Shown: in pieces, positions 13,806 to 42,061 of the stretch
Layout of the letters: the number at the start of each line of letters is the position of its first letter
Position numbering within the stretch: position 1 is the stretch's first letter
Assembly (NCBI GenBank): GCA_938010765.1
Contig: CALLVX010000026.1
Location: 1 to 42,061, forward strand
Origin: an uncultured Flavobacteriaceae bacterium
GTDB taxonomy: Bacteria; Bacteroidota; Bacteroidia; Flavobacteriales; Flavobacteriaceae
DNA: 42,061 nucleotides
Direction of reading: 5' to 3'
Program-made: the position numbers and the translations under genes
The notes under the pieces: model-generated
What the model was told of the DNA's origin: nothing
Seen by the model: the letters and a program-made list of their open reading frames with translations, nothing else
The model's database searches: none

Positions 13806-13840
13806 CAAACAAAAAGGGAACTCCTCAATAGAGTCCCTTA
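13806..13840. terminator. Hairpin overlapping the GH130 stop codon
   Basis: AAGGGAACTC and GAGTCCCTT pair with one bulged base around a 7-nt loop. A T-run flanks one side and an A-run the other, so it could terminate transcripts from either strand. The GH130 stop codon (13825-13827) lies inside the hairpin. Confidence 0.5.
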
Positions 13841-15021: not shown

Positions 15022-15023
15022 TT

Positions 15024-16847
15024 TTACATTTGTTCATCTAAGTTGTCCCACCAGAATTTTTTGAGAAGTACCGCGCAAACTGCGAAAATTCCCAAACAGA
15101 CCAATAAAGGTGTGTATTCTCTTAGCACCAGGTATAGCGGTATGATGACCAAGAGGGTCTGCGCAGTGGTTCCTATTAGAATGTTGAACATATCTTTTTT
15201 GAACATTTTATTCTCTTTGAAATCGGGATTTTCGGCCAATACCTTATCGCGTATCGGTTTCCAAAAACCCCATGGCCTTGTTTTCTTGTAAAAGTCCATT
15301 AGACGTCTTTCATCTGTTGGTCCCGCAGTATAGGTTCCTACGATGCAACCTATGGTGGTGATCAAAAGTAATAGTGGAAATAGATGAAGTTCCAAGGTTT
15401 CTTTGAAGACCAGGGGAAACAGCACCGCTGGAATTAAACCAGAAAGCATGCCCCAAAAGTAGCCTTCACCATTGAAACGCCACCAGTGCCATTTAAGGAT
15501 GTTCGAAACAATATAACCACCCCAGAGGGCCGAAACGATCCATTGGGTGATCGAATTTACATCCTGTACAAAAAAGCCAAGGATAATGCTTACCACTACC
15601 ACTACGATACCGCTCGCATAGTTCATACGGCTTACCTGCTTAGGTTTGGCTTCTTTCTTGTACCGTAGATAGATATCGTTGACCAAGTAAGCCTGCGCGG
15701 CATTGAGGGTCCCGGCGAATGTAGACATGAAAGCTGCGAGAAGCCCTGCCAATAAAAGTCCCATGAGCCCAACAGGTACAAACTGGCTAATGGCCGACGG
15801 CAGTATTTGTTCAAAATCAATTTGTCCCGCCCGTTGCAAATCTAGTTGGTCATAGAACAACAAGCCGAGTACGGCGAAACCACCGATCATCAAATACCTG
15901 GCGGGCATTAATGCCAGGGATACAAAACCGCTCATTTTTGCCGCTTCTTTTGGTGATTTGGTCGAAAGTATTTTTTGCATGTCATAGTTGGGTGCGGGCC
16001 CCGCGATACTTGATAGTAACCCTTTAAAAACACAAAGCATAAAAAAGATGCCGAAAAGGGAGAAACCATCGGATGCGATTTTTTCATTTACTTCTGTAAT
16101 AATTCCGGTCCAATCAATATCAAGGTTCCAACCAAAGAAGGGGTCCATCCATCCCTCGGGCAAGGTAAGTGTGTTTTCACCCATGGCGGTCCATGCAATG
16201 ACGGCAATGGCAAAAGCCGAGACCGTCATAATGGTAAATTGCAACAAGTCCGTCCATACGATCCCCGACATGCCTCCAAGAACAGAATAAAAAACGGCAA
16301 AACAAGTGAAAATGGTTCCGTAGAAATGTGGTACGTATTGCGGTGCTATTTCAAAGGGAACATAGGCGCTAACAACTTCCCATGGGATGAATATTTCCAC
16401 AAATTTCCCAAGACCAATGAAGCCATAGGCAAGGAACCCCAAGCAACTTACGATTGCAAAAATTACCACAACGGTATGGGACCATTTACCACCTTTTCCT
16501 TCACCAAACCGGAAGAAAATCCATTCTGCGCCAGTGGTCACATTGCTTCTTCTTAGCCAGGCCGAGAGGTAGACCATTAAGAATACCTGATTGAATACGG
16601 GCCATAACCACGGAATCCAAATACTTTTAAGGCCGTACACAAAAGTTATGGTCACCAACCACATGGTTCCCGAAATGTCGAACATCCCGGAAGCATTCGA
16701 AAGCCCGAGCATATACCAAGGAATCGACTTACCTCCTAAAAGGTAATCATCTTTGCTACGCTGCGCTCTTTTTCGCAGTACCAGTCCTATGACCATTGTG
16801 GCTAACAGATATGCCAAAATTATTACAATGTCTATAGTTTCTAGCAT
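15024..16847 (-). CDS. Sodium:solute symporter (SSS family)
   Basis: A 607-residue inner-membrane transporter with about 13-14 hydrophobic helices in the LeuT-type SSS arrangement. Helix 2 shows YMLGLSNASGMFDISGT, the usual sodium-site region, and a middle helix has AFMSTFAGTLNAAQAYLVND, typical of sugar-transporting members. The C-terminal extension with extra helices (about 480-607) is common in Bacteroidota homologues. Only 2 nt separate it from GH130, so the two should be one transcript, and the likely cargo is a beta-mannoside disaccharide. That cargo is inferred from the partner, not from the sequence. It is divergent from an AraC regulator gene across a 190-nt gap, which probably controls it. 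Confidence 0.88.
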   Translation of the reverse strand: MLETIDIVIILAYLLATMVIGLVLRKRAQRSKDDYLLGGKSIPWYMLGLSNASGMFDISGTMWLVTITFVYGLKSIWIPWLWPVFNQVFLMVYLSAWLRRSNVTTGAEWIFFRFGEGKGGKWSHTVVVIFAIVSCLGFLAYGFIGLGKFVEIFIPWEVVSAYVPFEIAPQYVPHFYGTIFTCFAVFYSVLGGMSGIVWTDLLQFTIMTVSAFAIAVIAWTAMGENTLTLPEGWMDPFFGWNLDIDWTGIITEVNEKIASDGFSLFGIFFMLCVFKGLLSSIAGPAPNYDMQKILSTKSPKEAAKMSGFVSLALMPARYLMIGGFAVLGLLFYDQLDLQRAGQIDFEQILPSAISQFVPVGLMGLLLAGLLAAFMSTFAGTLNAAQAYLVNDIYLRYKKEAKPKQVSRMNYASGIVVVVVSIILGFFVQDVNSITQWIVSALWGGYIVSNILKWHWWRFNGEGYFWGMLSGLIPAVLFPLVFKETLELHLFPLLLLITTIGCIVGTYTAGPTDERRLMDFYKKTRPWGFWKPIRDKVLAENPDFKENKMFKKDMFNILIGTTAQTLLVIIPLYLVLREYTPLLVCLGIFAVCAVLLKKFWWDNLDEQM

Positions 16848-24144: not shown

Positions 24145-24171
24145 TAATTGTGTTGCTTAAATCGAGTTCAA

Positions 24172-25803
24172 ATGATTAAAAAAAGTTTCATAGTAGTTTG
24201 TGCCGTACGCTTGCTTACCGGTTGCGGAGCGGAGAACAAGCCGGTCATTAAAAGTAATGAAGAACCATTGCCCAATATCATTTGGCTGGTGGCCGAAGAC
24301 CAATCGCCCGAATGGTTTCCGATGTATGGTGATACTACGATGGCGCTTCCTAATCTTGAAATGCTATCGGCAGATGGGGTTGTTTTTGAAAATGCGTATT
24401 CGCCCGCACCGGTTTGTGCACCTGCCAGAAGTTCAATTATTACCGGGATGTACCCGACCAGTTTGGGCACGCACAATATGCGAACCCATGCCCCTTGGAA
24501 AGAGGGCAAAAATGAACCAAGTATTGGTATAGCCAGTTACTCACCAGTTGTGCCGGAAGGTGTAAAAATGTTTACGGAGTATTTGCGAAAGAAAGGGTAT
24601 TACTGCGCCAATGGCCCCAAAGAGGATTACAATTTTGAAAAAACGGCCGCCGCTTGGGATGAAAGCGGCAAGGAGCGCCACTGGCGAAAACGAGCAGAAG
24701 GTCAGCCTTTTTTTACGGTTTTTAATTTTTCGGTATGTCATGAATCCCAAATATGGAATAGAGGAAAAGATTCCCTTTTTGTAGCTCCTGAAAATGTGAT
24801 GATACCACCATACTTCCCCGACAATGATACCATTCGCCATGATTTGGCAGTAAACTACAGCAATCTAAAACGTCTTGATAACCAATTGGGTACAGTGTTG
24901 AAAGAACTAAAAGAAGACGGGCTCTATGAGAATAGCATTATTTTTTTCTACGGCGATCATGGTGGTCCCTTTCCTCGTTACAAACGGGCGCTTTATGAAA
25001 CTGGTACCAAAGTACCTATGGTTATCAAATTTGCCAACAATGAAAGGGGAGGCCAGCAAGACGATCGTTTGATCAGCTTTATCGATTTGGCTCCCACTGT
25101 GCTCTCATTGGCTTCCATTGAACCTCCAAAGGTAATGCAGGGGGTCGCTCAGTTCGGAAAGTTCGAGGCAGCCAAGAAACCTGTATATACCTTTCACTCG
25201 TCCGATCGTTTTGACGAAGTCTATGACCGTCTACGTGCCGTGCGTGGCAGTCGCTACAAATATATTCGGAGTTTTGATACTACCAAGCCCCATGCACTAC
25301 CAGTTTCGTATCGAGAACAGATGCCTATGATGCGCAATCTTCGTATGTTGTTCAAAGAAGGGAAACTAAACCCAGTGCAGGCAAATTGGTTGCAAGCTCC
25401 AAAACCCCGGGAAGAATTATACGATCTAGCGAAAGATCCGTTCGAATTGGAAAACCTTGCAGAACGACCCGAATTGCAAGATACGTTACAGTCGTATCGA
25501 AATGTACTGAATGATTGGATGAACGAAACAAATGATTTAGGGGGCATCTCAGAAAAGGAACTGATGATCGGTTGGTTGCCGAACGGAGAACAACCAGCGC
25601 TTCCTGCTTTGGAATTGGAGGAAAAAGAGGAAGGAATCAACCTGTATTGCAAAAAAACGGATGCGACCATTGTTTGGAAACAACCGAAAGATTCTATATG
25701 GACTATCTTCCACAAACCGCTTCCCAAAAACATCAGTTTCGAAGCAAAGGCCGAACGAATTGGCTACCGAGATAGTGCCGTCCTGACCTATGGTAGTGAG
25801 TAG
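24172..25803 (+). CDS. Sulfatase (S1 family) lipoprotein
   Basis: A 543-residue exported lipoprotein with lipobox LTGC (Cys18). VCAPARSSIITG (81-92) contains the sulfatase signature C-x-P-x-R: Cys82 should become formylglycine and Arg86 is conserved. The usual N-terminal Asp-Asp calcium pair reads Glu-Asp (AEDQSP, 41-46). YGDHGGPFPRYKRALYETG supplies the second metal-site Asp/His. A small C-terminal beta domain follows residue about 470. It removes sulfate from an algal or host glycan; the position and sugar cannot be told by eye. A TTG 8 codons upstream is possible, but the ATG at 24172 leads straight into the signal peptide. It converges with the GT39 gene 17 nt away. Confidence 0.88.
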   Translation: MIKKSFIVVCAVRLLTGCGAENKPVIKSNEEPLPNIIWLVAEDQSPEWFPMYGDTTMALPNLEMLSADGVVFENAYSPAPVCAPARSSIITGMYPTSLGTHNMRTHAPWKEGKNEPSIGIASYSPVVPEGVKMFTEYLRKKGYYCANGPKEDYNFEKTAAAWDESGKERHWRKRAEGQPFFTVFNFSVCHESQIWNRGKDSLFVAPENVMIPPYFPDNDTIRHDLAVNYSNLKRLDNQLGTVLKELKEDGLYENSIIFFYGDHGGPFPRYKRALYETGTKVPMVIKFANNERGGQQDDRLISFIDLAPTVLSLASIEPPKVMQGVAQFGKFEAAKKPVYTFHSSDRFDEVYDRLRAVRGSRYKYIRSFDTTKPHALPVSYREQMPMMRNLRMLFKEGKLNPVQANWLQAPKPREELYDLAKDPFELENLAERPELQDTLQSYRNVLNDWMNETNDLGGISEKELMIGWLPNGEQPALPALELEEKEEGINLYCKKTDATIVWKQPKDSIWTIFHKPLPKNISFEAKAERIGYRDSAVLTYGSE

Positions 25804-25820
25804 CCGTTAAATTTTGGTTT

Positions 25821-27425
25821 TCAGTCATTGGTTTGCGCAACTCTTTGAAGCACTCCCTTCCAAAATGTATTGAAACTGCTTTTTGGATTCGAACAAAGAT
25901 ATACGGTAGTACCGTACTCGCGAGCGTGTATATTGGTGACTTCTCCAATAATCTCTACCTTCTGAAATAAGGCGGCAACGTCTTCTCCAAGTTCGTCGTT
26001 AATGTATATAAAATGCGTGATTTCTGGTTGAAACTCCCCAGGTACCCAATAGGCAAAACTTTCATTGAAACTTAGGGGCTCGGGTAGTTTGTATTTTTTA
26101 CCAATTACAGCTACTGCACCAGCTTGCCCATAGTTTTCGCAATAAATAGCACCCCTTGTTTTATCAGGAATTCGGGAATAGGCTTTAGCTGTTATCGAGA
26201 CTAATTCTTCCCAACCCAGCTGATCGGCATAGTCTTGTGGCAAGGAGTGGATACTACCATCCTCGAACCTTCTTCCTAGCAGCAAACCATGATTATCTTC
26301 TAGCTTCTTAAAATACTCGATCATCCCGTCTTGGCCATATACCGGAATTCCAAAAGGGAGTATGGGAAACGTCAGCGATACGAACACCACTGGCAGTACC
26401 CAACGAACCCAGTTGTTGGTTAGGTACTTCTCAATTGCAACAGCACCACCCGAAATAAGAACAGGAATGACACCGATGGTATAATAGCTTTTTCCCCTTA
26501 ACAGAAGTAATACTACTACTACGAGCAAAGCACTAATGGCAATGTAGCGATATGTTTTTTGGGTAAACAGATATGCAAGTCCGGCCAGCATCACGATACT
26601 GGCAACAAATGGCATCGTAAGTTGATCGAGAAGAAACAATCCTCGGTCTACATTTACCAACTGCTGCGCTTCCAGTTCTGTCATATGATTAATTATGGGA
26701 AGTCCCCTTTTTAGCTGCCATATAAGGTTGGGGGAGAAAACTAGCAATCCCAGGCCCAAACCTCCATAGAACTCCTTTTTGGAAAAAACAACCCGATGTA
26801 CTGAAAATGAAATGGCTGCGAGGAGGGCAAGTAGGAGCAAGGCGACTAAGTATTTATTCAAGAGTGCTACCCCAAACAGCGCGCCGATGACCAGCAAATA
26901 GTTACTCTTTTGCGAATTCACATATTTAATTACATAATAAAATAGCAATGTCCAAAGGAACAGGTCTATATGCACTGGTTGAAATAAATGAAATGCCCGT
27001 AGGCTTACCGGCATGATGATCAATAGAATTGCGGTAAGTACTTGGGCGTACGCTTTACCTCCTAGTTTCTTGGCGATCAAAGCTCCCAGCCAAACCAACG
27101 CGCCGCTTAATACGGCCGGAAACAGTTTGACCGCAAAAAGCGAAAAACCAAACAATGATTGCATCAGTGCGGCAATCCATCCAATCAAAGGAGGAACGGT
27201 GGCATATCCAAAATCGGGATGCAGTCCTAAGGCAAAATACAGGAGTTCGTCCCTGTGATATTCTAGCTTTCCAAAGAAGAGTAGGTGAAGTGCAACATTG
27301 GCCACGGCAAGAACACCAATAAACAGCGAAGTGGCTCCTATTTTTTTGTTAATGGGCATTGGCGATTTCGTCGTTTCTGAGATTGCACACGGTTTAGGCG
27401 CATCAATCAGACGATTTACGAGCAT
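25821..27425 (-). CDS. GT39/ArnT-like membrane glycosyltransferase
   Basis: A 534-residue inner-membrane protein with about 10-12 hydrophobic helices. The first periplasmic loop carries EYHRDELLYFALGLHPDFGY, with the Asp-Glu typical of polyprenyl-phosphate-dependent GT-C enzymes (PMT/ArnT group), followed by PPLIGWIAALMQ. Such enzymes transfer a sugar from a lipid carrier to protein or lipid in the periplasm. The start is unclear: the ATG at 27425 gives a 22-residue polar leader, and the one at 27359 (MPINKK) also works. It is 33 nt after GH26, so it may be the last gene of the GH1-sulfatase-GH26 operon, an odd partner for degradative enzymes. Confidence 0.8.
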   Translation of the reverse strand: MLVNRLIDAPKPCAISETTKSPMPINKKIGATSLFIGVLAVANVALHLLFFGKLEYHRDELLYFALGLHPDFGYATVPPLIGWIAALMQSLFGFSLFAVKLFPAVLSGALVWLGALIAKKLGGKAYAQVLTAILLIIMPVSLRAFHLFQPVHIDLFLWTLLFYYVIKYVNSQKSNYLLVIGALFGVALLNKYLVALLLLALLAAISFSVHRVVFSKKEFYGGLGLGLLVFSPNLIWQLKRGLPIINHMTELEAQQLVNVDRGLFLLDQLTMPFVASIVMLAGLAYLFTQKTYRYIAISALLVVVVLLLLRGKSYYTIGVIPVLISGGAVAIEKYLTNNWVRWVLPVVFVSLTFPILPFGIPVYGQDGMIEYFKKLEDNHGLLLGRRFEDGSIHSLPQDYADQLGWEELVSITAKAYSRIPDKTRGAIYCENYGQAGAVAVIGKKYKLPEPLSFNESFAYWVPGEFQPEITHFIYINDELGEDVAALFQKVEIIGEVTNIHAREYGTTVYLCSNPKSSFNTFWKGVLQRVAQTND

Positions 27426-27458
27426 TATTGTTACAATGGGAAAAAAATGCGTACATTC

Positions 27459-28499
27459 TTATCTGATTTTGCGAACTTCTTTTAAAAATAGCACATCGTC
27501 ATAAGATGCGTAACGGGTAAAATCGGATACGACCATATGTCCCGGGTACGGTGCATAATGATGTGCCGGACTATCGTTGCGCCATACGAGTGCATAACAG
27601 ATTCCACTCTGGGCGATGGCGGGATGCAATACCTTGGTAAACCAGTTTTTCTTATTTATTTTCTCAAGGCCTGTCTCTGTCAATGCGAAGGGCATGTTTT
27701 TCTCTTTGGCAATATGTTGCAATAGCCGCAAATCTTTTTTTAGGTGTTTTTTAAAAAGGGCCGTTGTAAAATGTTGGTAAATATCGATTCCCAACATATC
27801 TACATAGGCATCCCCTGGGTAGTATTTTAAAAAATCATTTTTTCGAAGCAAAAGATTGGGGGAATAACAGTACATCAGATTGTGCACTTTCAATTTTGTT
27901 GTCAATAGCTGAAAGGTCTCTTGCCAGAGACGAATAAACTCTTGGGGGCTACAATGGCCTTTACCCCACCAGAACCAGCCTCCGTTCATCTCATGAAAGG
28001 GCCTAAAAATAATAGGTATACGTTTTCCTTTCTTGTCTTTTAGACTTCTCAGGAAGTCGGCCAAATTCATAAGCCAATTGCGGTATTCCAAGGAAAGCGA
28101 TCCATTTTTAAAAAGGGCTGAGACGGCCGGGGTGGTATCCCAGGCGTTTTTCTTTGAAACGGGATTATCGGGATGCCAACTAAGGGTAACAATTCCTCCT
28201 TTGGCATGCGTTTTTCGAATCAATTTCCGCATGATTTTAAACGAAACCGAGTCGATACTGTGGCTGCTTCCTTTTTCTATATTTCCAATTTCAAAGCCAA
28301 TTACCGCCGGGTGATCTCCGCAAGTACTTTTTACGTCGCTTTTGCTCTGCCCTCCCTTGTTTTTCCAACCTATACCGTAGGTGAGCGCTTCTTGATGGCC
28401 AAAGGCGTATCCTGTTTTTGCAATTTTGGGCAAACGTTCGAGTAGGGTTTGCACCCTTTTATGGGCTTTTGGGTCAGAGGCAATCTGTTTCTGTTGCAT
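27459..28499 (-). CDS. GH26 glycoside hydrolase (probable beta-mannanase)
   Basis: A 346-residue enzyme with a GH26 barrel. FRPFHEMNGGWFWWG (165-179) holds the acid/base Glu170, and FALTETG (271-277) the nucleophile Glu275. GH26 is mostly beta-1,4-mannanase, with some beta-1,3-xylanase and lichenase members. No signal peptide or lipobox is present and the start is fixed by a TAATG overlap with the upstream sulfatase stop, so the enzyme appears cytoplasmic. It would then act on imported oligosaccharides rather than polymer. The GH130 phosphorylase at 13825 makes mannosides the favoured substrate. Confidence 0.88.
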   Translation of the reverse strand: MQQKQIASDPKAHKRVQTLLERLPKIAKTGYAFGHQEALTYGIGWKNKGGQSKSDVKSTCGDHPAVIGFEIGNIEKGSSHSIDSVSFKIMRKLIRKTHAKGGIVTLSWHPDNPVSKKNAWDTTPAVSALFKNGSLSLEYRNWLMNLADFLRSLKDKKGKRIPIIFRPFHEMNGGWFWWGKGHCSPQEFIRLWQETFQLLTTKLKVHNLMYCYSPNLLLRKNDFLKYYPGDAYVDMLGIDIYQHFTTALFKKHLKKDLRLLQHIAKEKNMPFALTETGLEKINKKNWFTKVLHPAIAQSGICYALVWRNDSPAHHYAPYPGHMVVSDFTRYASYDDVLFLKEVRKIR

Positions 28500-30298
28500 T
28501 AGTCGACTCGTTTGAATTGTAACAAACGTACTTCAATGGCTTCTTTTCCTGAAAATGCCAAGGCTTTCAAGGTCATGGGATGCCTACCTTTATTCAACGG
28601 CATGGTACCCATTGGGAACGCCTTAAACACTTTTACATAGGATTCTATTCTTGGTGCCCGGTCATTTTCCGCCCCGATCAGCGGCGGGTCATGGGGTTCT
28701 CTTAGCCGCGTGCCCAACATGCTTTTTCCATGGGTCAAGAAAATACCCACACCGGCATTTTTAGCTTTACAGGTATAGTACAGTGTTACTTCGAAATTCC
28801 CTTTTTCCAATACTTCAACGTCCCAGCTGATAGAATCTTTTTCGCTTTTCCAATTGGTGAAGTAGCTATCATTTGGCCATCGATTGCTTCGCGTTATGTT
28901 TCCGTAAGGCATACCATCACGTGCTGGCAATTGGGTGTAGATGGCGTCAGCATATCCAAGAGTAAATGCCCTGGTATCCGTTTCTGGGGACAGGGGATCC
29001 ATACCGGCAAGCCAGGCCATTTTTGCCCGCTTCAAAGAATCGGCCATTTGCGGCACCAATTCGGTAACATCGGTTCGTTGGCTACGTTCTTTGAAAATAT
29101 CGTACAAGCGATCATTGTGATCTAACCTATAATTTTGGGAACGCACGCTGGTTTTTCCGTTCCAATGGTTGAAAAGAAGGCGAGAGGGCCACTTTTTAGC
29201 AGTTCCGTTAATTAATGGACGCAGACTTTTCCCGTCTATGGGATTGTTGGTTTCTGGATTCAACTCGGCCAGTTTGGACAAAGTGGGCAATAGATCGATC
29301 GAGGATGCGATTTGAGAAACGCTCTTTCCTGCCGGTATAACGCCTTTCCATTGGATAAAAAACGGACTTCGAACCCCACCTTCATCAGTAGCGCCTTTTT
29401 TACCGCGCATACCACCATTGTATCGCCAGCTGTTAGGACCGTTGTCAGAAAGAAATACAACCATGGTGTTTTCTTCCAAAGCCAACTCTTTTAGTTTGTC
29501 TATGATACGCCCAACATTGGTATCAATGTTTTCTACCATGGCCAGGGCGGCCTTGGTAAAATGGAGATTCTTTTCTTCTTCCCCATGATAAGTATTTTGC
29601 AAGTCGACGTCTTTAAAGCGATTCCAATATTCGTCAGGCACTTGCATAGGACTATGCGGCGTATTGTAAGGCAGGTACAAAAAGAAAGGTTCTTCTTGGT
29701 GCTGGGCAATAAAGGCCAATCCCTTATCCGTCAAGTCATCCGGCAGAAAGCCCTTTCCCTTCACAATGCGACCATTGTGTTCGAGCATTGGGCTAAAATA
29801 ATTGCCCCAATGCCCCGAGGCAAAACCATAAAAATCATCGAAACCTCTTGAATTTGGATGGTATGGAGGTTGCATTCCACTATGCCATTTGCCATAGGCC
29901 GCAGTATGGTATCCTTCCTTTTTAAGAATATCTGCCAAGGTGGTTTCATTAGTATTAATACGCTCTCCGCCCGAGGAAGTTCCATAGACACCCGTGCGAA
30001 GAAAGTAACGCCCTGTCAATAGCTCTGCCCTGGTAGGAGAACAAACGGGTTGCACATAGAAGTTTTCAAAAGAGACCCCGTTTTCCGCAAGTGCATCAAT
30101 ATTGGGGGTTTGTAAATTCTTATTGCCGTTTCTGCTCAGATCTCCCCAGCCCTGGTCGTCGGTAACGATTAAAACGATATTGGGGCGATGCTCTTTTTCA
30201 ATGGTTTCAAGAATAGGTTTTTCTGAATTCTCTTTGCAAGCATACCCCCCTAGTAAAAGCAATAATAGGGCACAAAAAGGAGAATGCAATTTAATCAT
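28499..30298 (-). CDS. Sulfatase (S1 family) lipoprotein with C-terminal extension
   Basis: A 599-residue exported lipoprotein (lipobox GYAC, Cys21). VTDDQGWGD (45-53) gives the N-terminal calcium Asp pair. PVCSPTRAELLTGRY (84-98) holds the formylglycine Cys86 and Arg90. GKWH (136-139) and SDNG (284-287) complete the active site. After residue about 435 there is a C-terminal region of about 165 residues with alternating beta strands, longer than in basic sulfatases and possibly a carbohydrate-binding sandwich. It starts 5 nt after GH1 and ends in a TAATG overlap with GH26, so all three are co-transcribed. The product should be a desulfated oligosaccharide for the two hydrolases. Confidence 0.9.
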   Translation of the reverse strand: MIKLHSPFCALLLLLLGGYACKENSEKPILETIEKEHRPNIVLIVTDDQGWGDLSRNGNKNLQTPNIDALAENGVSFENFYVQPVCSPTRAELLTGRYFLRTGVYGTSSGGERINTNETTLADILKKEGYHTAAYGKWHSGMQPPYHPNSRGFDDFYGFASGHWGNYFSPMLEHNGRIVKGKGFLPDDLTDKGLAFIAQHQEEPFFLYLPYNTPHSPMQVPDEYWNRFKDVDLQNTYHGEEEKNLHFTKAALAMVENIDTNVGRIIDKLKELALEENTMVVFLSDNGPNSWRYNGGMRGKKGATDEGGVRSPFFIQWKGVIPAGKSVSQIASSIDLLPTLSKLAELNPETNNPIDGKSLRPLINGTAKKWPSRLLFNHWNGKTSVRSQNYRLDHNDRLYDIFKERSQRTDVTELVPQMADSLKRAKMAWLAGMDPLSPETDTRAFTLGYADAIYTQLPARDGMPYGNITRSNRWPNDSYFTNWKSEKDSISWDVEVLEKGNFEVTLYYTCKAKNAGVGIFLTHGKSMLGTRLREPHDPPLIGAENDRAPRIESYVKVFKAFPMGTMPLNKGRHPMTLKALAFSGKEAIEVRLLQFKRVD

Positions 30299-30303
30299 GA
30301 AGT

Positions 30304-31713
30304 TTATATTTCAATTTCTTCTTGGGAAAACTCGAAGCCGCCATTTTTGATGAGCTCGGCAAACCAATGTGCCGACCTTTTAGGGGTTCGTTCCAATGTA
30401 TCATAGTCAACATAATGAATTCCAAAACGTTTTGAATACCCCAAGGCCCATTCGAAATTATCCATGAACGACCATACGAAATACCCCTTTAGGTTGACAC
30501 CATTCTTAATTGCCTTGTGGCAGGCGGCCAAATAACTTTCGATGTATTCTTGGCGCACGGTATCGTTCACCTGTCCATTTTCCAATTGATCATTCAAAGC
30601 ACAACCATTCTCTGTGATATAAAGTGGTGGATTATCGTACCGATTGCTGATCCATTCGATCAACTTTCGGCAGCCCCAGGGTAAAATGGCCCAATTCATG
30701 GTAGTTAATTTCCAAGAAGGATCTGCGGTAAGTTGTACATACTGATCCTCGAAAATACCGCCATTGCCATACACTTCATTTTCTACATCGGCATTCGTAT
30801 CTACATCAGAGGCATATAGCCCTGTGTAATGGTTCAAACCGAAGAAATCAGACGAACCTTTGATCATTGCGATATCTTCTTTGGTGAATTTTGGCAAACG
30901 ATCCCCAATGCGATCTTTCATTACCTGCGGATAATCGCCAAAGTAGATGGGGTCTGCAAACCAGCCGATAAAAAACTCTAAGGATCGTTCCGCAGCCTCC
31001 TTATCGGCTTTGGAATCTGTCAAAGGCTCCCGCCAGTCACAGTTGTTGGTAATACCTATTTGCCCATTTTGAGTAGGTTGGTATTCGGATCTGTAGAGTT
31101 GTACCGCCTTTCCATGCGCCCTTAATAACTGGTGGGCGACCAGATAAGGCTCGCTTTTCGACTTTCTTCCAGGGGCGAAGACACCTTGGTTATATCCTAA
31201 AATAGCAACTACCCAGGGCTCATTTAAGGTTATCCAATGTTTAACCCGATTACCGAAATGTTCAAAACAGATACCGGCGTACTTTGTGAACGAATCGGCA
31301 ATTTCCGGGTTTAACCAACCATCTTTTTCTGTATGTAAGGCCAAAGGTAAATCCCAATGATACAAAGTGACCCATGGGGTAATATCATGTTTTAAAAGTT
31401 CATCGATGAGGTTGCTGTAAAATTCGATGCCCCTTAAATTAACCTCCCCTTGACCATCTGGTTGTATACGGCTCCATGAAATGGAAAAACGATAAGCTTT
31501 AAGACCCATGTCGGCCATTAGTTGTACATCTGCCTTATATCTATGGTAATGGTCGCAAGCAATATCGGCATTCTCGTTATTTTCGGTTCTACCGGGGGTA
31601 TGTGCATGCGCATCCCAAATACTCCAAGCACGGCCGTCTTCAAGGGCAGCACCTTCTATTTGATGACTTGAGGTTGCAGAACCCCAGATAAAGTCAGCAG
31701 GGAATTTCAACAT
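30304..31713 (-). CDS. GH1 beta-glycosidase
   Basis: A 469-residue cytoplasmic enzyme without signal peptide, of normal GH1 length. FPADFIWGSATSSHQIEG (4-21) is the GH1 N-terminal signature. TLNEPW (162-167) carries acid/base Glu165 and YITENG (365-370) nucleophile Glu368. GH1 enzymes cleave beta-glucosides, beta-mannosides or beta-galactosides from the non-reducing end. It leads an operon with a sulfatase and GH26, so it may finish the hydrolysis of GH26 products, or it may act on beta-glucans from the GH17 operon. It is divergent from the DUF5060 gene over 164 nt. Confidence 0.92.
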   Translation of the reverse strand: MLKFPADFIWGSATSSHQIEGAALEDGRAWSIWDAHAHTPGRTENNENADIACDHYHRYKADVQLMADMGLKAYRFSISWSRIQPDGQGEVNLRGIEFYSNLIDELLKHDITPWVTLYHWDLPLALHTEKDGWLNPEIADSFTKYAGICFEHFGNRVKHWITLNEPWVVAILGYNQGVFAPGRKSKSEPYLVAHQLLRAHGKAVQLYRSEYQPTQNGQIGITNNCDWREPLTDSKADKEAAERSLEFFIGWFADPIYFGDYPQVMKDRIGDRLPKFTKEDIAMIKGSSDFFGLNHYTGLYASDVDTNADVENEVYGNGGIFEDQYVQLTADPSWKLTTMNWAILPWGCRKLIEWISNRYDNPPLYITENGCALNDQLENGQVNDTVRQEYIESYLAACHKAIKNGVNLKGYFVWSFMDNFEWALGYSKRFGIHYVDYDTLERTPKRSAHWFAELIKNGGFEFSQEEIEI

Positions 31714-31877
31714 GGTCTATGTGCGTTTAGATTTTAATTAAAAAGACATAAAAGTCATTAAAATTATGCACAAAGCCTATCAAAATACTAACAAATTCAA
31801 AGACAAATTTGAAAGGATCGGGATTTACTCAACAAAAAAATATGACTATATTACAGTATTAAATCAAACTAGTACCA

Positions 31878-33734
31878 ATGACAATCTATCGCTGGCTAAA
31901 ACCATTGTGTTTGGTCTATGCAGTGCTATTCTGTATTCTAGCCTGTTCAAAAAAAGAAGACCTTACAAACTATACCCTTGAAGGGAGTTTAAAAAAATGG
32001 CAACCGCTAACGCTTACTTTTGAAGGCCCACAGGCGACTGAGAACGACAGTCTTAATCCGTTTTTAGATTACAGCTTACTAGCGCATTTCTACAACGAAA
32101 ATGACACCATTCCGGTTCATGGGTATTTTGCCGCAGATGGCGATGCAGCCAATACGTCTGCCGTTTCCGGGAATAAATGGCAAGTGAAATTTGCCCCGCC
32201 GGCTATTGGTTCATGGAAATTCGAGGCACAGTTTTTACAAGGAAAAGAGATTGCCGTTAGTGTAGGTAAAGCCTTTACCAAGTCTAATTCTTTGTGGAAA
32301 ACCAGTGGTGATTTTGAAGTGGCTCCTGTTGATTCGTTGGCCCCCGGTTTTTATAGAACCGGGAAGATTGCCTATGTCGGAAAACACTATTTAGAGGAAT
32401 CTGAGACAGGAATCCCGTTTCTAAAGAATGGGGTAGGAAGCCCAGAGAATTTTTTAGGTTATTTTGAATTTGATGGCACATTTGACAATGGGGGAGTACC
32501 AACTCCAACGCTGAACAAAGGGTTGCACGAATATTCTAGCCATAAGAAGGATTGGAAATGGAATGACCCCACTTGGAACAATAGGGAGGGAAAATCATTG
32601 ATAGGCGCACTGAATTATATGGCCAAAAAGAAGATGAACAGCCTGTACTTTTTAGTGATGAATGTGAAGGGCGATGGTGATGATGTTTGGCCTTGGATAG
32701 CTCCCGAAATCCGAACACGATACGATATTAGTAAATTGGCGCAGTGGGAAATAGTTTTTACCCATATGGATCGGCTTGGGATTGCTATGAATATGTTTAC
32801 CCAGGAAACAGAGAACGATACGCTATTGAACAATGGCGAATTGGGGGTTGAAAGAAAGTTGTTTTATAAAGAACTAGTAGCACGTTTTGGACATCACTTA
32901 GGTGTTGTTTGGAACTTGGGAGAGGAAACCAATCGCAGTGCGGAGCAATTAAAACAATATGCTTCCTATATTCGGCAAATAGATCCATATACACATCCGA
33001 TTGCGGTGCATAATCATGTAAGGGTGACTGGAAAACGAATGGAAGGAAGGCCTCTGGATCCTATAAAAGAAACTTTTCGACCTATGTTGGGATATCGCGA
33101 TTTTGAAATACCGTCGCTACAGATGTTCGACACTTCCGAGGTGCATACCGAAATTCAGAAATGGCGCGATCTTTCTGCAAAAAAGAAGCGGCCATGGGTA
33201 GTGTACTTAGATGAAATAGGTCATTGGGATATTGGAGTTACCACAGATACCGTTACCAATAATAATTACGATATGGTGATGAGAAGCAGCCTCTGGGGAA
33301 GTCTTATGAGTGGGGGTGCCGGAACCTCTTGGTATTTTGGTGGGCTCGATACTGCCAACAATGACATGGCTGCTGAAGATTTTAGGACAAGAGATCAATG
33401 GTGGACGATCAGTAATCATGCACGTTCGTTTTTTCATGATCATTTACCCTTTTGGGAAATGCAGGGGCACGATGAATTGTTAAGTAATAAAAAGGCCTTT
33501 TGTTTTGCGAAAAAAAATGAAATCTATGTGGTGTATCTGCCAAAAGGGGAATCAACGGACCTCGAAATAGGGAACGGGGCATTTATCATCGCATTTTTTG
33601 ACCCCAAAGGGGGAGGAAAGTTATACGATATGCTAAACAGCGGATGGGAAGTAAGCAAACCTAATAGTGTTACACTCTCTGCATTAGATGGCAAAGATAC
33701 CATGGATTGGGTTATTGTAATTAAGAAAAAGTAG
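31878..33734 (+). CDS. DUF5060-domain putative glycoside hydrolase, lipoprotein
   Basis: A 618-residue exported lipoprotein (ILAC, Cys23). Residues about 35-145 form a beta-sandwich like DUF5060 (KWQPLTLTFEGP and APPAIGSWKFEAQF blocks). The central part looks like a clan GH-A-type barrel, with WNLGEETN and VVYLDEIGHWDIG as candidate catalytic strands; the Glu residues there could be acid/base and nucleophile, but this is a guess by pattern. A small C-terminal beta domain closes the protein. Relatives are found in Bacteroidota glycan-use regions with no agreed activity. It is divergent from the GH1 operon and alone on its strand for over 1.8 kb. Confidence 0.72.
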   Translation: MTIYRWLKPLCLVYAVLFCILACSKKEDLTNYTLEGSLKKWQPLTLTFEGPQATENDSLNPFLDYSLLAHFYNENDTIPVHGYFAADGDAANTSAVSGNKWQVKFAPPAIGSWKFEAQFLQGKEIAVSVGKAFTKSNSLWKTSGDFEVAPVDSLAPGFYRTGKIAYVGKHYLEESETGIPFLKNGVGSPENFLGYFEFDGTFDNGGVPTPTLNKGLHEYSSHKKDWKWNDPTWNNREGKSLIGALNYMAKKKMNSLYFLVMNVKGDGDDVWPWIAPEIRTRYDISKLAQWEIVFTHMDRLGIAMNMFTQETENDTLLNNGELGVERKLFYKELVARFGHHLGVVWNLGEETNRSAEQLKQYASYIRQIDPYTHPIAVHNHVRVTGKRMEGRPLDPIKETFRPMLGYRDFEIPSLQMFDTSEVHTEIQKWRDLSAKKKRPWVVYLDEIGHWDIGVTTDTVTNNNYDMVMRSSLWGSLMSGGAGTSWYFGGLDTANNDMAAEDFRTRDQWWTISNHARSFFHDHLPFWEMQGHDELLSNKKAFCFAKKNEIYVVYLPKGESTDLEIGNGAFIIAFFDPKGGGKLYDMLNSGWEVSKPNSVTLSALDGKDTMDWVIVIKKK

Positions 33735-37072: not shown

Positions 37073-37981
37073 TTAAAATTTTATTTTTTCATTTTTATCC
37101 CAAAGCCCCCAATAGGCTCCCACGTCACCCTCATCCCCGGTTTTCCATGATTCGTCGAAAGAGGAAAAGTAAAAGATTTCTACCTTCTCTTTAGCACCCC
37201 ATATTTGGGTGTTGATAAAATATTTCATCGCATTTTCCGCTGATGAAAAGGCACCTTTGAAACCGCCGCCTTCACTTGGCCACCCTGTTTCGGTAATGAT
37301 TACTTTCTTTCCTTTTCCTGCGTCCTTGGCCTGTCCCAACATTGCCTGCATGTGATTGAGGGAATGTTCTATAGGACAGCCTTCCCAATAGGGATAGCAA
37401 TTTGAGAGTACTACATCGCAAGCATCTGTAATTCTAGGGCGTTGAGAGAATTCATAGTACGCATCTACATACCCTACCGTTGTATTTGGCAGTGCCTCTT
37501 TAACTCGGTGAATATAGGCGAGCAATTGCTCTTCGCTTAAATCACCTCGATACATCACCTCGTTACCGACTGCGGCAATATCAACATTCCCTTCTTTCCC
37601 AAGTGTGATCAAACCTTCAATTTCCTGTTCATTTAATTCCAAGTCATCTCCCAACCAGGCACCTACCATGGTCTTTAAGCCATTCGCATTTGCAATTCTA
37701 GGAATATGTTCATTTCCTTCGATACACGAAAATGATCGTACCCATTTCGTAAAGGGCTTTATGATCTTGATTCTTCTTCGTACTTGTTCTTCGGTAATGA
37801 TATCCCCTGGTCCTTGCCCATCTTCGTAGATGCTAAAACAAAGCCCATGCATTCCGTTTTCGAGTGTATCTCTCCACAGTTGTTCTAATTTCTCGTTGGG
37901 GTATTCCTTAAAATCTACTCCGGCATGGGTTGTATAGTTCGTATCCGGCAGTGAAAAATGATAGTCTTTTCGGTATGACAT
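37073..37981 (-). CDS. GH17 beta-1,3-glucanase-like enzyme, cytoplasmic
   Basis: A 302-residue GH17 barrel with no signal peptide. AAVGNEVMY (136-144) carries acid/base Glu141 and ITETGWPS (229-236) nucleophile Glu231. GH17 enzymes act on beta-1,3-glucans such as laminarin. The sequence matches the C-terminal half of the neighbouring MFS-GH17 protein at roughly half of its positions by eye, including MHGLCFS, AAVGNEV, VGYVDAYYEF and FYFSSFDESWK, so the two arose by duplication. It is encoded 39 nt after the fusion gene in the same operon. It should process imported oligosaccharides. Confidence 0.88.
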   Translation of the reverse strand: MSYRKDYHFSLPDTNYTTHAGVDFKEYPNEKLEQLWRDTLENGMHGLCFSIYEDGQGPGDIITEEQVRRRIKIIKPFTKWVRSFSCIEGNEHIPRIANANGLKTMVGAWLGDDLELNEQEIEGLITLGKEGNVDIAAVGNEVMYRGDLSEEQLLAYIHRVKEALPNTTVGYVDAYYEFSQRPRITDACDVVLSNCYPYWEGCPIEHSLNHMQAMLGQAKDAGKGKKVIITETGWPSEGGGFKGAFSSAENAMKYFINTQIWGAKEKVEIFYFSSFDESWKTGDEGDVGAYWGLWDKNEKIKF

Positions 37982-38020: not shown

Positions 38021-40393
38021 TTATTCGTATTTGAAGTTTTCATCGGCATCCCATAGTCCCCAAGAGGTACCTGCCCAACCTTCTGAATGTATTTTCCAGG
38101 ACTCGTCAAAGGAAGAGAAGTAAAACAGCTCAACCTTTTCCTTTTCTGCCCATTGTTGTATTTTTATGTAATATTTTTTCATATTCTCGCTTGAAGGTAC
38201 GGCACCCTCCACTGGCTCGCCCTTGCTCGGCCATCCGGTCTCTGTAATCATAACCCTTTTGCCTGCAGCGGCGTCACTGGTTTTACGATACATTTCCTGC
38301 AGATAAAATCCAGCGGTACGGATATCGGAGCCTTCCCAGAAAGGGTAACAGTTTGCGAGAATAATGTCGCATTCGGCCGCTAAGGCGGGCCTGTTGATGA
38401 ATTCATAATATGCATCGACATAACCCACGGGAATATAGTTGGCTTCTTTTTTAACCCGTCGTATGTAGTCGATGATGATAGTTTCGCTCAGTTCATCTCG
38501 GTAGAGCACTTCGTTCCCTACAGCAGCAATATCGACCAACCCTTCCTTGATCAGCTTGATCAGTGCACCGATTTCGAGTTCATTTTCTTCTGTTACGTTG
38601 CTTAGCCAGGCACCTATCATGGTATTGAAGCCCATTTCTTTTGCGATGGCCGGAATTTTTTCATGCCCATTGGTACAGGAGAAAACACGTATCCATTGCG
38701 TATGTGGTTTCAAAACCAATAACCGTTTTCGTATTTGCTCCTCGGTAATGGTATCTCCGGGACCCTGACCGGGTGTATAGGCGCTAAAACATAGGCCATG
38801 CATTCCAGCTTTGAATACAGTCGAAAATTCGTTTTGTAGTGCTTCTTGTGATATGGGAGCAAAATCAACCTTCGAAGTGAAAAATTCAGGATATTTTTCC
38901 TTTAATTCTTGCTCAGATAGGCCATCCATATTTATTTCGGAGAGCAATTTCATTTTTGCATAGCCAGCGGGTTTTTGTCCTTTTCTCTTTTCTAATGCCT
39001 CACGAATTTCACCTGCACGTTGTTCTGTTATATTGTAATCACGCATCACGATCATGGCAATGACAGTTCCTATAATTGGAATTCCTGAAAAAGCCAATCG
39101 TAAGCCTTCAACGGCACCTTCAGGTTGAACGGGGGTACCTGAATCAAAACCTACAGTGGTCATAATAACACCACTCAAGCCTCCCGCTATGGCAAAACCA
39201 AATTTTACCATCAGCCAATAAATAGCTCCAAACGTACCTTCCCTTCTAAGACCTGTATTCAGTTCATCCAAGTCAATAACATCTGCCGTCATAGACATCA
39301 TCAATACGAAAAGACTTCCTATACCAAAGGAGAAAAAGGGCAAGGCAAATATGAACATATACGGCTTGCCTGGAATGAAGAGGAACCAAAGCATAACGTA
39401 CCCAACAATGGATATGCCCTGTGATACAAGAAAAGCCTTCTTTTTACCCATTTTTTTCGACATTCTTGTAACGATAGGAATCACGAAAAAAGTAGTTCCC
39501 AGGGCTCCTAAGCATCCAAAAAGTGTGGGCCAAACTCCTGCGGCACCTGCGTCACCCTCGAATAGATGATACACAATGATAAAGAACGAGAACGATGCAA
39601 TTGTCATAAAGGCATTGTAAACCAAGAAGGTGGCAATGCAGAGCTGTCTAAATGATTTCATAGTAAAGGCACTGGCAAAACCCGCCCCTATTTCTTTCAG
39701 GCTATTTCCGATGTATTTTATTTTTAGCGGCGAATAGTCTTCATTTAACGTTGATTCACTTTTAATGAATATACCGGGTACAATAGCACAGAGGGCAAAA
39801 ATAACGCCTACCCAAACGGCAAGTGTTCGGGTAGCGACTTCTGCAGATTCAAACCACTCCGGATCATACATGATTATCCAAAACCAAGGAGCAATGACCC
39901 AAGCCCACTGACCGATCCACTGGGCAGTTGCCATAATACTGGTTCGCTCATGAAAATCATTGCTCATTTCGTACCCCATGGCTACATAGGGCACACTAAA
40001 AATGGTAATCCCCAAGTAAAATATAAAGGACCAAATCATAAAGTAGGTGAAATTATAATCAACTCCGGCTCCCTTATAAAGTTGCCACATCATAATAAAT
40101 GCACCGCCCAAGACAATACCACCAAGAATCACATAAGGTCGTCGTCGTCCCCATCTAGATTTTGTATTATCCGATATATATCCCATTATAGGGTCGGTAA
40201 ATGAATCGAACAACCTTGGAAAAAAGTAAATTACCCCCCACATCCAGCCCGGAAAACCTAAGTCTTGTACTAAAACTACCATGAAAATCCCCAATGCTGC
40301 AGGAAACATTTGGTTGGCAAGCATACCAATTCCGAAAGCAACTTTTTGGCCAAACGGAACTTTCTCTGTTGCAGCCATTTTTATATCAGACAT
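38021..40393 (-). CDS. Fused GPH/MFS sugar transporter and GH17 glucanase
   Basis: A 790-residue fusion in one uninterrupted frame. Residues 1-455 form a 12-helix GPH-type (MelB-like) sugar:cation symporter: FDSFTDPIMGYISDN (62-76) keeps the two Asp (63, 67) that match MelB's sodium-site pair, RWGRRRPY (80-87) is the loop motif, and TADVIDLDE (369-377) the C-half motif. A linker (about 456-510, charged) leads to a full GH17 domain (about 511-790) with acid/base Glu628 (AAVGNEVLY) and nucleophile Glu718 (MITETGWPS). In a MelB-like topology both ends face the cytoplasm, so the glucanase would meet substrate as it enters. The gene sits between two other GH17 genes in one operon. A 5-bp inverted repeat AGTGG/CCACT lies in its leader. 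Confidence 0.9.
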   Translation of the reverse strand: MSDIKMAATEKVPFGQKVAFGIGMLANQMFPAALGIFMVVLVQDLGFPGWMWGVIYFFPRLFDSFTDPIMGYISDNTKSRWGRRRPYVILGGIVLGGAFIMMWQLYKGAGVDYNFTYFMIWSFIFYLGITIFSVPYVAMGYEMSNDFHERTSIMATAQWIGQWAWVIAPWFWIIMYDPEWFESAEVATRTLAVWVGVIFALCAIVPGIFIKSESTLNEDYSPLKIKYIGNSLKEIGAGFASAFTMKSFRQLCIATFLVYNAFMTIASFSFFIIVYHLFEGDAGAAGVWPTLFGCLGALGTTFFVIPIVTRMSKKMGKKKAFLVSQGISIVGYVMLWFLFIPGKPYMFIFALPFFSFGIGSLFVLMMSMTADVIDLDELNTGLRREGTFGAIYWLMVKFGFAIAGGLSGVIMTTVGFDSGTPVQPEGAVEGLRLAFSGIPIIGTVIAMIVMRDYNITEQRAGEIREALEKRKGQKPAGYAKMKLLSEINMDGLSEQELKEKYPEFFTSKVDFAPISQEALQNEFSTVFKAGMHGLCFSAYTPGQGPGDTITEEQIRKRLLVLKPHTQWIRVFSCTNGHEKIPAIAKEMGFNTMIGAWLSNVTEENELEIGALIKLIKEGLVDIAAVGNEVLYRDELSETIIIDYIRRVKKEANYIPVGYVDAYYEFINRPALAAECDIILANCYPFWEGSDIRTAGFYLQEMYRKTSDAAAGKRVMITETGWPSKGEPVEGAVPSSENMKKYYIKIQQWAEKEKVELFYFSSFDESWKIHSEGWAGTSWGLWDADENFKYE

Positions 40394-40464: not shown

Positions 40465-41742
40465 TTATTTTAATGCGGGCGGCGCAAGTACTTCTTTGAT
40501 TAATTGAGTTTGATCACCCTCATAGGTCTTGGTAATTGGATGCCCATTTCTGGTAAGTCCTTTAAAGGCTTCCTGATCTACTAAATCCCATATAGCGTAT
40601 TTGGCCTGTCCATTTAGGGTAAACAGACCAAAATGATTTTCTGATCCTTTTGGGTTTGCAGCATCTTTCCATTGTTCATTGAACGCTTCGAAATAGAAAC
40701 AAGAAATGTTCGCTTCATTTGTCCACTCACGAATTAATTTGTGGTATACCCCTTCTTTGTATTCATCGGTGGCCCTTGAACCTTCCGCTCCATAAAATCC
40801 GTCAGAAACACTTGCCCAGCCTGTTTCTCCAATATGAATGGGCTTATTTACGCCTACACTTTTTACATAGTTGGTAACACTGTCATACTGCGCCTTTGCA
40901 AAATCAAGCGCGCGTAGCATGGCGGCATCCACTTTGCTAAGACTCGAATCTTTTTCTTCTTCTTTTGGACTGATCCAGAAGGCTGGGTTGTAATGCGTAT
41001 TGTGATAGGGGTAGGTGTGCATAGATATATAATCAACGGCCTTGATTAATTTTTCTAAGTTTTCATTGTGGTAGCTAGCTTCACCGCCACCCCAAGAGGC
41101 AAAATCATCGGAACTGGTAATCCAAAGGTTTTTTGGTAATTTTCCCGATTTTTTTAGGGCTTGCAAATGGTTTACCCATTTTAGGATAACTGCAGGTTGC
41201 ACATAGTAGCTTGTAGCCCATTTCACCATAGCTTCGTTCCCTACGGCGATGATTTTTACGATATCGGGATATTGGTTGGCGAGGGCGACAGCCCGATCTA
41301 TTTCGGCAGCGTTCGCTTCACTTTCCACATCATGGTCGGGAGTTTTATCTGTCCAAGCATTTTTACAATCTATCCAGGCGCCCAACATTACGTACATTTC
41401 AAAATTGGAATCTTCGCTTTTTAGCTCCCGTATTGCTTTTAATAGATTAGGTGCATGTTGTAGTTGCACGTTATAGGTGCGTAAAATACCGACACCCATT
41501 GCTGACAACAGTTTCAAATCGTCTTTAAGCTCTTCGATGGTCGGTTGAATGTCTCTTGAATTTTCGCGATATCCGCCATAGGAGATTGCCAAATAGTCCG
41601 GATTGCCTAAAATGTCTTTTGCACTTAGCGTTTTTACTTCTTTCACCGCAGTTGTTTTGTTTTCGGTTTTTGAATCGTCTTTACATGAGAAGGCCAGTAG
41701 CATCATAAAAATATACCCTCCCAATTTTACTAGATTTTTCAT
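40465..41742 (-). CDS. GH17-family lipoprotein
   Basis: A 425-residue exported lipoprotein (LAFSC, Cys20). ILRTYNVQLQ (86-95) and VMLGAWID (118-125) are early GH17 strands, AVGNEAMVKW (166-175) carries acid/base Glu170, and HIGETGWAS (303-311) nucleophile Glu306. It differs clearly from the two intracellular GH17 copies and has longer loops. As a surface or periplasmic enzyme it would trim beta-1,3-glucan to oligosaccharides for the fused transporter. It follows an incomplete gene by 7 nt and precedes the fusion gene by 71 nt, so the operon reads partial gene - GH17 - MFS/GH17 - GH17. Confidence 0.87.
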   Translation of the reverse strand: MKNLVKLGGYIFMMLLAFSCKDDSKTENKTTAVKEVKTLSAKDILGNPDYLAISYGGYRENSRDIQPTIEELKDDLKLLSAMGVGILRTYNVQLQHAPNLLKAIRELKSEDSNFEMYVMLGAWIDCKNAWTDKTPDHDVESEANAAEIDRAVALANQYPDIVKIIAVGNEAMVKWATSYYVQPAVILKWVNHLQALKKSGKLPKNLWITSSDDFASWGGGEASYHNENLEKLIKAVDYISMHTYPYHNTHYNPAFWISPKEEEKDSSLSKVDAAMLRALDFAKAQYDSVTNYVKSVGVNKPIHIGETGWASVSDGFYGAEGSRATDEYKEGVYHKLIREWTNEANISCFYFEAFNEQWKDAANPKGSENHFGLFTLNGQAKYAIWDLVDQEAFKGLTRNGHPITKTYEGDQTQLIKEVLAPPALK

Positions 41743-41749
41743 GTTTGTA

Positions 41750-42061
41750 CTATTTTTCTTGTTCGGTTGACCTGATGGATACGATGATCTGCGCTAGTTC
41801 ACCTGTGCGTTCAAAGAGCTTTTGACTTGTTTCCAAATCTAGTTGCAGGCCTTCTTGCTGAATCGGTGATTCGTTGTTGCACAGTACCGATATGCTTTCC
41901 TTTTCACTCAATTGGTACACAATGGGAACTTGGCAATACGTAAAACAAAGAGATCCCTTTTCCAAGGAAACAGATTTTGTATCACCTGCTATGCTGGTAT
42001 ACGTAAAGGTGGCCGTGCCTTTTAAGAATTCCGCTTTTCGCAATAAATGGGGTTCAAAGAC
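41750..42061 (-). CDS. C-terminal part of an unrecognised protein, cut by the window edge
   Basis: About 103 residues are visible and the frame stays open to the end of the window, reading VFEPHLLRKAEFLKG at the edge, so the start lies outside. The apparent internal start is only a TTG. The fragment alternates hydrophobic strands (GTATFTYTSI, GSLCFTYCQVPIVYQLSE), as in a beta-sandwich domain at the end of a larger enzyme. It is 7 nt upstream of the GH17 lipoprotein gene, so a carbohydrate-active enzyme such as a beta-glucan phosphorylase or another hydrolase is possible; I do not recognise the family. Confidence 0.6.
   Translation of the reverse strand, partial: VFEPHLLRKAEFLKGTATFTYTSIAGDTKSVSLEKGSLCFTYCQVPIVYQLSEKESISVLCNNESPIQQEGLQLDLETSQKLFERTGELAQIIVSIRSTEQEK

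Follow-up and report, generated by a model that had tools for sequence, protein, structure and literature searches.

Introduction

Laminarin is described as a very large marine carbon flux, and proteins in which an MFS transporter is fused to a GH17 domain were described in marine bacteria in 2018. The protein reported then, FbGH17B, is the product of FORMB_24740 (AOR29491.1) in Formosa sp. Hel1_33_131, and it released glucose from the oligosaccharides produced by FbGH17A (Unfried et al., 2018; PMC6246565). According to the same work, marine Flavobacteriia commonly carry the MFS-GH17 fusion, which was proposed to couple hydrolysis with uptake; in the sections dealing with FbGH17B the protein is reported solely as a hydrolase (PMC6246565). 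In 2023, a study of North Sea MAGs found that most expressed variant-1 laminarin PULs carried an MFS-GH17 fusion, which was also present in the gammaproteobacterial SAR92, Luminiphilus and SAR86 (PMC10108472); the passages on the fusions in these two papers give no transport measurement. In Muricauda, GH17B is encoded apart from the MFS transporter, and most of the clusters have GH149 upstream; FbGH17B and MlGH17B have been treated as corresponding in position (PMC13188888). With regard to catalysis, a Tyr is required, together with a Trp and a Glu, for transfer in RmBgt17A, where a Tyr to Ala change abolishes the transfer reaction, and FbGH17B has Met in place of this acceptor Tyr (PMC11005184). 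Within the searches that we made, no statement was found that dealt with repeated gain or loss of the fusion, with fusions of the Tyr type or with a GH17 group confined to transporter tails.

Here we analyzed a stretch of 42,061 nucleotides (the window) for which an initial annotation had proposed a sugar symporter fused to a GH17 glucanase, adding that it knew of no characterized fusion with GH17. FbGH17B is such a fusion, described and assayed in 2018 (PMC6246565), and the window protein belongs with it. What we add to the published picture is a GH149 neighbor, a two-sided split between fused and free GH17 domains, switching between fused and bare carriers, and an active site of the Tyr type.

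Results

The MFS_2-GH17 fusion gene occupies positions 38021..40393 of the window on the minus strand, as defined by its ORF, Pfam, phmmer, AlphaFold2 and Foldseek. Congruently with the single continuous frame claimed by the initial annotation, the minus strand read from 40393 to 38021 is one ORF of 790 codons (790 aa) with an ATG start and no internal stops, and the plus strand contains many stops in the same frame. The Pfam MFS_2 model spans residues 20-457 (225 bits; cut-off 27) and the Glyco_hydro_17 model just residues 713-790 (37 bits; cut-off 28.2). When the protein was compared with solved structures using phmmer, its N-terminal part aligned to MelB and MFSD2A, and residues 546-772 aligned to 4wtp, the glucanosyltransferase RmBgt17A of Rhizomucor miehei (E 8e-30).

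We then modeled the protein with AlphaFold2 from an alignment of 46 fusions out of 56 fused frames, near-copies being omitted. The model (mean pLDDT 86.5, pTM 0.60) places 12 membrane helices at residues 14-450 (39044..40354, minus strand), followed by a helix at 457-472, a low-confidence segment at 472-480 and a whole beta/alpha barrel at residues ~516-790. The barrel (residues 516-790; 38024..38848, minus strand) is delimited by Pfam, phmmer, AlphaFold2 and Foldseek. Foldseek matched the model to 4wtr (TM 0.86) and MelB (TM 0.81), both scores by target length, and MFSD2A was also matched by the transporter part; among the 50 structures listed of 453 (E <= 0.001), the titles are those of transporters or GH17 enzymes and none combines both. 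The model thus supports both predicted folds, in keeping with the complete transporter and the complete GH17 domain of the initial annotation, and does not fix their relative arrangement, the pTM being just 0.60. The linker, outlined from the alignment and the model, covers residues 458-515 (38849..39022, minus strand) and is free of stops and frameshifts. Across the 46 fusions the distance from E457 to G533 is held at 64-77 residues, while the majority residue averages 48-58% of the rows in the linker vs 81% in the transporter.

Next to the fusion lies a set of genes consistent with laminarin utilization. The contig ends at 42061; from there, in minus-strand order, come a truncated GH149 gene, a GH17A-like gene, the fusion and a free GH17 gene. 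The first (41750..42061, minus strand) is the C-terminal end of a GH149 beta-1,3-glucan phosphorylase truncated by the contig end; its 103 aa match positions 1039-1133 of NF058639 with 91 bits (E 2.4e-25), the full-length cut-off of 1150 bits being unreachable for such a piece. The second (40465..41742, minus strand) encodes an FbGH17A-like GH17 of 425 aa whose named relative is the FbGH17A structure (PDB 6fcg) and whose N-terminus, read by eye, is of the lipoprotein type (LLAFSC). The free GH17 gene (37073..37981, minus strand) encodes a protein of 302 aa with no signal sequence visible by eye and 55% identity to the fused GH17 domain. SusCD falls outside the visible stretch, which closes with the contig at 42061. 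No GH30 gene was found between GH17A and the fusion, nor elsewhere in the genome of origin (87% complete, 209 contigs). The GH17A-like gene and the GH149 end support the laminarin context given by the initial annotation, and the GH149 end also points to the import of oligosaccharides.

On the minus strand of the window, at 13825-16847, a GH130 phosphorylase-type gene adjoins a sodium:solute symporter gene, another carrier-plus-phosphorylase pair. The region 24148-33734 encodes two sulfatases and GH26, GH1, PMT_2-type and DUF5060 proteins, and is perhaps a separate polysaccharide locus.

A search for the same architecture, as proposed in the initial annotation, recovered many homologs, from Bacteroidota and from Pseudomonadota MAGs. 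We found 97 relatives, of which the best 80 were kept, corresponding to 79 distinct loci; judged by ORF, 39 of these 79 carry an intact fusion and 40 a bare transporter. Two independent records with 92% and 90% identity to the window fusion are its nearest relatives among these 80. Seven of the 39 fused loci are Pseudomonadota MAGs (Burkholderiales, Rubrivivax, Rhodoferax, Comamonadaceae and Betaproteobacteria) and the others are Bacteroidota, including Flavobacteriaceae, Weeksellaceae, Saprospiraceae, Lewinellaceae, Chitinophagaceae, Microscillaceae and Flammeovirgaceae; many fused relatives are MAG contigs whose taxonomy is possibly wrong. In the same set of the best 80 of 97 relatives, and where more than 6.5 kb of upstream sequence was available, GH149 is present in 25 of the 32 fused loci and in 31 of the 33 bare ones; where the downstream sequence reached 1.2 kb or more, a free GH17 gene is present in 34 of the 36 fused loci and in 17 of the 36 bare ones. 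GH30 is missing from the stretch covered in 8 of those 32 fused loci. The carrier of Maribacter antarcticus is bare and shares 88% identity with the window transporter. The free GH17 gene is usually downstream of the fusion in Bacteroidota; among the seven Pseudomonadota fused loci (L052, L055, L060, L061, L062, L065 and L091), five have it upstream.

In the family of the window organism, at least 16 of 299 genomes (its own included; ~5%) hold an intact fusion by ORF, at least two more (G174 and G069) hold fusions on a second MFS type, and in G124 the contig ends inside the fusion. With these numbers, and with the fusion called common in the Formosa study (PMC6246565), the rarity stated by the initial annotation proved overstated for fusions of the MFS-GH17 kind. 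For the phylum we relied on the match table alone, in which 13 of 395 sampled genomes (own included) gave a full-length match without stops, and G174 and G640 gave a second-type match; the two samples share the genome of origin, G157 and G174. Neither G018 nor G247, the other two sampled genomes of the window's genus, had a fusion match among the matches listed, which hints at a gain or loss of the fusion inside the genus. The genome of origin is a draft in 209 contigs, and one could suspect that the fusion is an artefact of assembly or gene calling; the intact frames in 39 of 79 loci (best 80 of 97 relatives) and in at least 16 of 299 family genomes refute this explanation, to which we give practically no credence.

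The second MFS type, with ~40% identity to that of the window, is fused to GH17 at L124:1827-4394 (855 aa) and L125:2009-4456 (815 aa), in two family genomes, and related carriers of this type are bare. In L114, L115, L118 and L120 a bare MFS gene is flanked on both sides by free GH17 genes, with a second MFS gene (45-46% identity) nearby. A distant third GH17 type of ~310 aa follows the free GH17 gene in L036:11311-12273, L037:11329-12261, L078:10485-11426 and others; the five rows of this type in our tree all have Val at the position of the acceptor Tyr. Two sets of candidate fusions were also considered. Apparent MFS frames of 1025-1142 aa were read in seven loci (L114-L120) and consist of separate MFS and GH17 genes, so that this length seems to be a read-through measure. 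Seven genomes gave matches starting near query residue 334-342: those in G145, G126, G248, G009 and G230 are separate genes and not fusions, and those in G174 and G069 are the real fusions on the second MFS type.

The frames collected from the loci comprised 56 fused, 69 bare-carrier, 106 free GH17 and 83 GH17A-like frames, and 149 distinct GH17 domains were counted after excluding frames cut by a contig end. For the GH17 tree, removing near-copies at 85% and three domains that fell short of 260 aa left 119 rows, five of which were distant free rows that we treated as a far group. When the far group was left out, 44 fused and 70 free rows were split by one change; a tree with 12 rows added and no outgroup again separated 47 fused from 79 free rows by one change (SH-aLRT 95). 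The GH17 domains of G174 and G069 fall with the fused rows, and their carriers sit in a separate 13-row group with a support of 100. When the five-row far group was included, the window's ten-row clade joined the free genes (SH-aLRT 96). Rooting on RmBgt17A gave a support of 0 for the fused group and 41 for the free group, and with this outgroup a tree placing the window clade with the free genes could not be rejected (p-AU 0.717). We considered a second, independent fusion in the window clade, which is backed by the far-group tree (96) vs the fused/free split obtained without an outgroup (95). From these sequence comparisons, one origin of the fused GH17 domain would be the simplest reading, although not a proven one.

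A transporter tree of 84 of 115 rows after 90% thinning, obtained by a quick method and with a long-branch warning, had 21 switches between fused and bare carriers, at least 12 of them forced by supported branches. When the labels were shuffled on this tree the mean was 27 changes, and 3 of 500 shuffles reached as low as 21. Either repeated tail loss or carrier exchange could produce such a pattern, and the counts do not discriminate between them. Among 66 bare carriers with usable downstream DNA, 26 showed no GH17 match within 1.5 kb and the other 40 did. Of the 39 bare carriers with a GH17 gene close behind, 13 had gaps of more than 40 nt; we searched these 13 gaps for remnants of a fused GH17 and accepted none, the best match having an E of 0.002 (behind one second-type carrier) and the rest at least 0.067.

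The switching, together with the bare and closely similar carrier of M. antarcticus and the weak conservation of the linker sequence, would be expected if the fusion merely set the amount and place of two proteins whose transport and catalysis are not functionally coupled. The linker length is nonetheless kept over the 46 fusions, and zero free GH17 rows lie among the fused rows in the trees without the far group; we regard this explanation as somewhat unlikely.

We next studied the cation site and the orientation of the transporter. Residues Asp63 and Asp67 (40193..40207, minus strand) align with the cation-site residues Asp55 and Asp59 of MelB and are invariant in 46/46 aligned fusions; D55C is labeled a cation-site mutant in the title of a MelB PDB entry in the Foldseek list. 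The NCBIfam model TIGR00792 of the GPH subfamily scores 177 bits, below its cut-off of 231. Asp124 and Arg149 of MelB, which we take to be sugar-site residues, align with Ser133 and Gln158 of the fusion and are not conserved, so the MelB alignment does not reveal which sugar is carried. As judged from sequence, the transporter is likely a cation symporter for a sugar other than that of MelB.

Kyte-Doolittle analysis by itself gave 10 membrane segments, as well as an eleventh located in the barrel, compared with the 12 helices of the AlphaFold2 model. The loop at 309-321 carries six K/R and the loop at 413-430 carries zero. Given an even number of helices, an N-terminus inside and this distribution of K/R, the model supports a cytoplasmic C-terminus, as the initial annotation had argued, and we saw no sign of a periplasmic one. 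The GH17 domain could instead be periplasmic and produce sugars for the carrier. Unfried et al. call two enzymes of the cascade likely periplasmic, write that cleavage and transport would be simultaneous with the fusion, and in the part concerned do not make clear the side on which FbGH17B acts (PMC6246565). However, in addition to the 12 helices with the N-terminus inside, neither a signal peptide nor an extra membrane helix precedes the barrel of the window protein and the free homolog lacks a signal sequence, making a periplasmic domain very unlikely.

In the GH17 domain both catalytic residues are present, as the initial annotation had noted: Glu628 (38510..38512, minus strand), the predicted acid/base from the alignment to 4wtp, and Glu718 (38240..38242, minus strand), the predicted nucleophile from the phmmer alignment, are invariant in 46/46 fusions. 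The acceptor-platform residue is Tyr631 (38501..38503, minus strand), equivalent to Tyr136 of MlGH17B and Tyr102 of RmBgt17A; Trp686-Glu687 (38333..38338, minus strand) are equivalent to Trp191-Glu192 of MlGH17B and also invariant in 46/46 fusions. The window domain thus has the full Tyr-Trp-Glu acceptor set of glucanosyltransferases. At the Tyr position, the 51 distinct fused domains have Leu (27), Tyr (11), Met (6), His (3), Phe (2) or Gln (2), and the 98 distinct free GH17 domains Tyr (83), Leu (9), Val (5, the far group) or a gap (1). The window's ten-row fused clade has eight Tyr and two Phe, and both GH17 proteins of the window, fused and free, have Tyr. From these residues we predict that the majority of fused domains, in having no Tyr, are like FbGH17B, a hydrolase, and that most of the window clade resembles the transferases; the window domain may transfer besides hydrolyzing.

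A stronger version of this idea is that the tethered GH17 of the window clade is mainly a glucanosyltransferase that joins or branches entering oligosaccharides, trapping them or lengthening chains for GH149. The complete residue set of the window domain, the loss of transfer in the Tyr to Ala variant of RmBgt17A and the Met of the glucose-releasing FbGH17B (PMC11005184), the Tyr in just 11 of 51 distinct fused domains vs 83 of 98 free ones, and the GH149 neighbor all speak for it. On the other hand, the residue set is no proof of transfer, the passages on FbGH17B report only a hydrolase, and fused and free domains fall in separate groups and need not have a common activity. We consider a mainly transferring enzyme unlikely. 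Also unlikely, and slightly more so, is a broader proposal, of a tethered GH17 subfamily that exists as a transporter tail only and is gained and lost by two deeply different MFS carriers, in which the window clade would be a glucanosyltransferase building longer or branched glucan from entering oligosaccharides, so that polymerization at the symporter exit would trap them and feed the phosphorylase.

Discussion

Our results are best accommodated by a role of the fusion in the inner-membrane step of laminarin utilization, where oligosaccharide symport would be combined with a tethered GH17 acting on arrival, like FbGH17B, and we think that this is probably its function. The lipoprotein GH17A would cut laminarin in the periplasm, and the MFS_2 domain, with its conserved cation site, would import laminari-oligosaccharides to the cytoplasm by cation symport. 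The GH17 domain, held by a ~60-residue tether on what is predicted to be the cytoplasmic face, would act on the arriving oligosaccharides, and the products would then be taken over by the free GH17 and by the phosphorylase GH149, which by the function of its family would yield glucose-1-phosphate. By lowering the free oligosaccharide at the exit, the tether could favor uptake. We counted in support of this sequence of steps the lipoprotein-type start of GH17A and the lack of a signal sequence in the free GH17. The tether is dispensable for the pathway, because GH149 also accompanies bare transporters (31 of 33 bare loci; best 80 of 97 relatives). That sugars are hydrolyzed on arrival, as the initial annotation suggested, is something we infer, and the active-site residues of the window domain would be compatible with transglycosylation.

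The fusion would thus be placed where laminarin sugars enter the cell. Since the enzyme is present on some carriers and absent from their close relatives, and the active site comes in two versions (Tyr vs Leu, Met or others), the comparison offers a natural experiment; since such variants of both carrier and active site exist, transport-coupled catalysis becomes directly testable.

When compared with known transporters, that of the window shares the GPH-type fold and the cation-site aspartates with MelB and MFSD2A, which differ from it in having no enzyme domain; the sugar-site residues of MelB also differ from those of the window protein. LacS-type lactose carriers are GPH transporters with a cytoplasmic C-terminal regulatory IIA domain. 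The fusion resembles them in the cytoplasmic C-terminal domain on a GPH transporter, but the LacS domain is regulatory and not a glycoside hydrolase; our literature search for LacS found no paper.

Among GH17 enzymes, MlGH17B of Muricauda lutaonensis is homologous to the window domain and shares its Tyr-Trp-Glu set (PMC11005184), but its gene is free-standing and neighbors a bare MFS gene. By position and residue set we would place it in the free group, to which the window gene at 37073-37981 belongs. Judged from their descriptions, FbGH17B and MlGH17B are probably in different groups, and hence paralogs, because one is fused and has Met and the other is free and has Tyr. The fusions of the North Sea variant-1 PULs have the same architecture as the window protein, and in a comparison by description we saw no difference in kind (PMC10108472).

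The closest counterpart is FbGH17B, for which G123 (L012/L121) is likely a close stand-in, having GH149, GH17A, GH30, a Met-type fusion and a free GH17 in the gene order of Formosa. Both proteins have an N-terminal 12-helix MFS transporter and a C-terminal GH17 domain, both cluster with an FbGH17A-type gene, and GH149 is found in the laminarin PULs of Formosa too. They differ in that a GH30 gene (FORMB_24730) sits between GH17A and the fusion in Formosa, in contrast to the window locus, which is without GH30 at that place, and in the acceptor position, where the Formosa protein has Met and the window fusion retains Tyr631.
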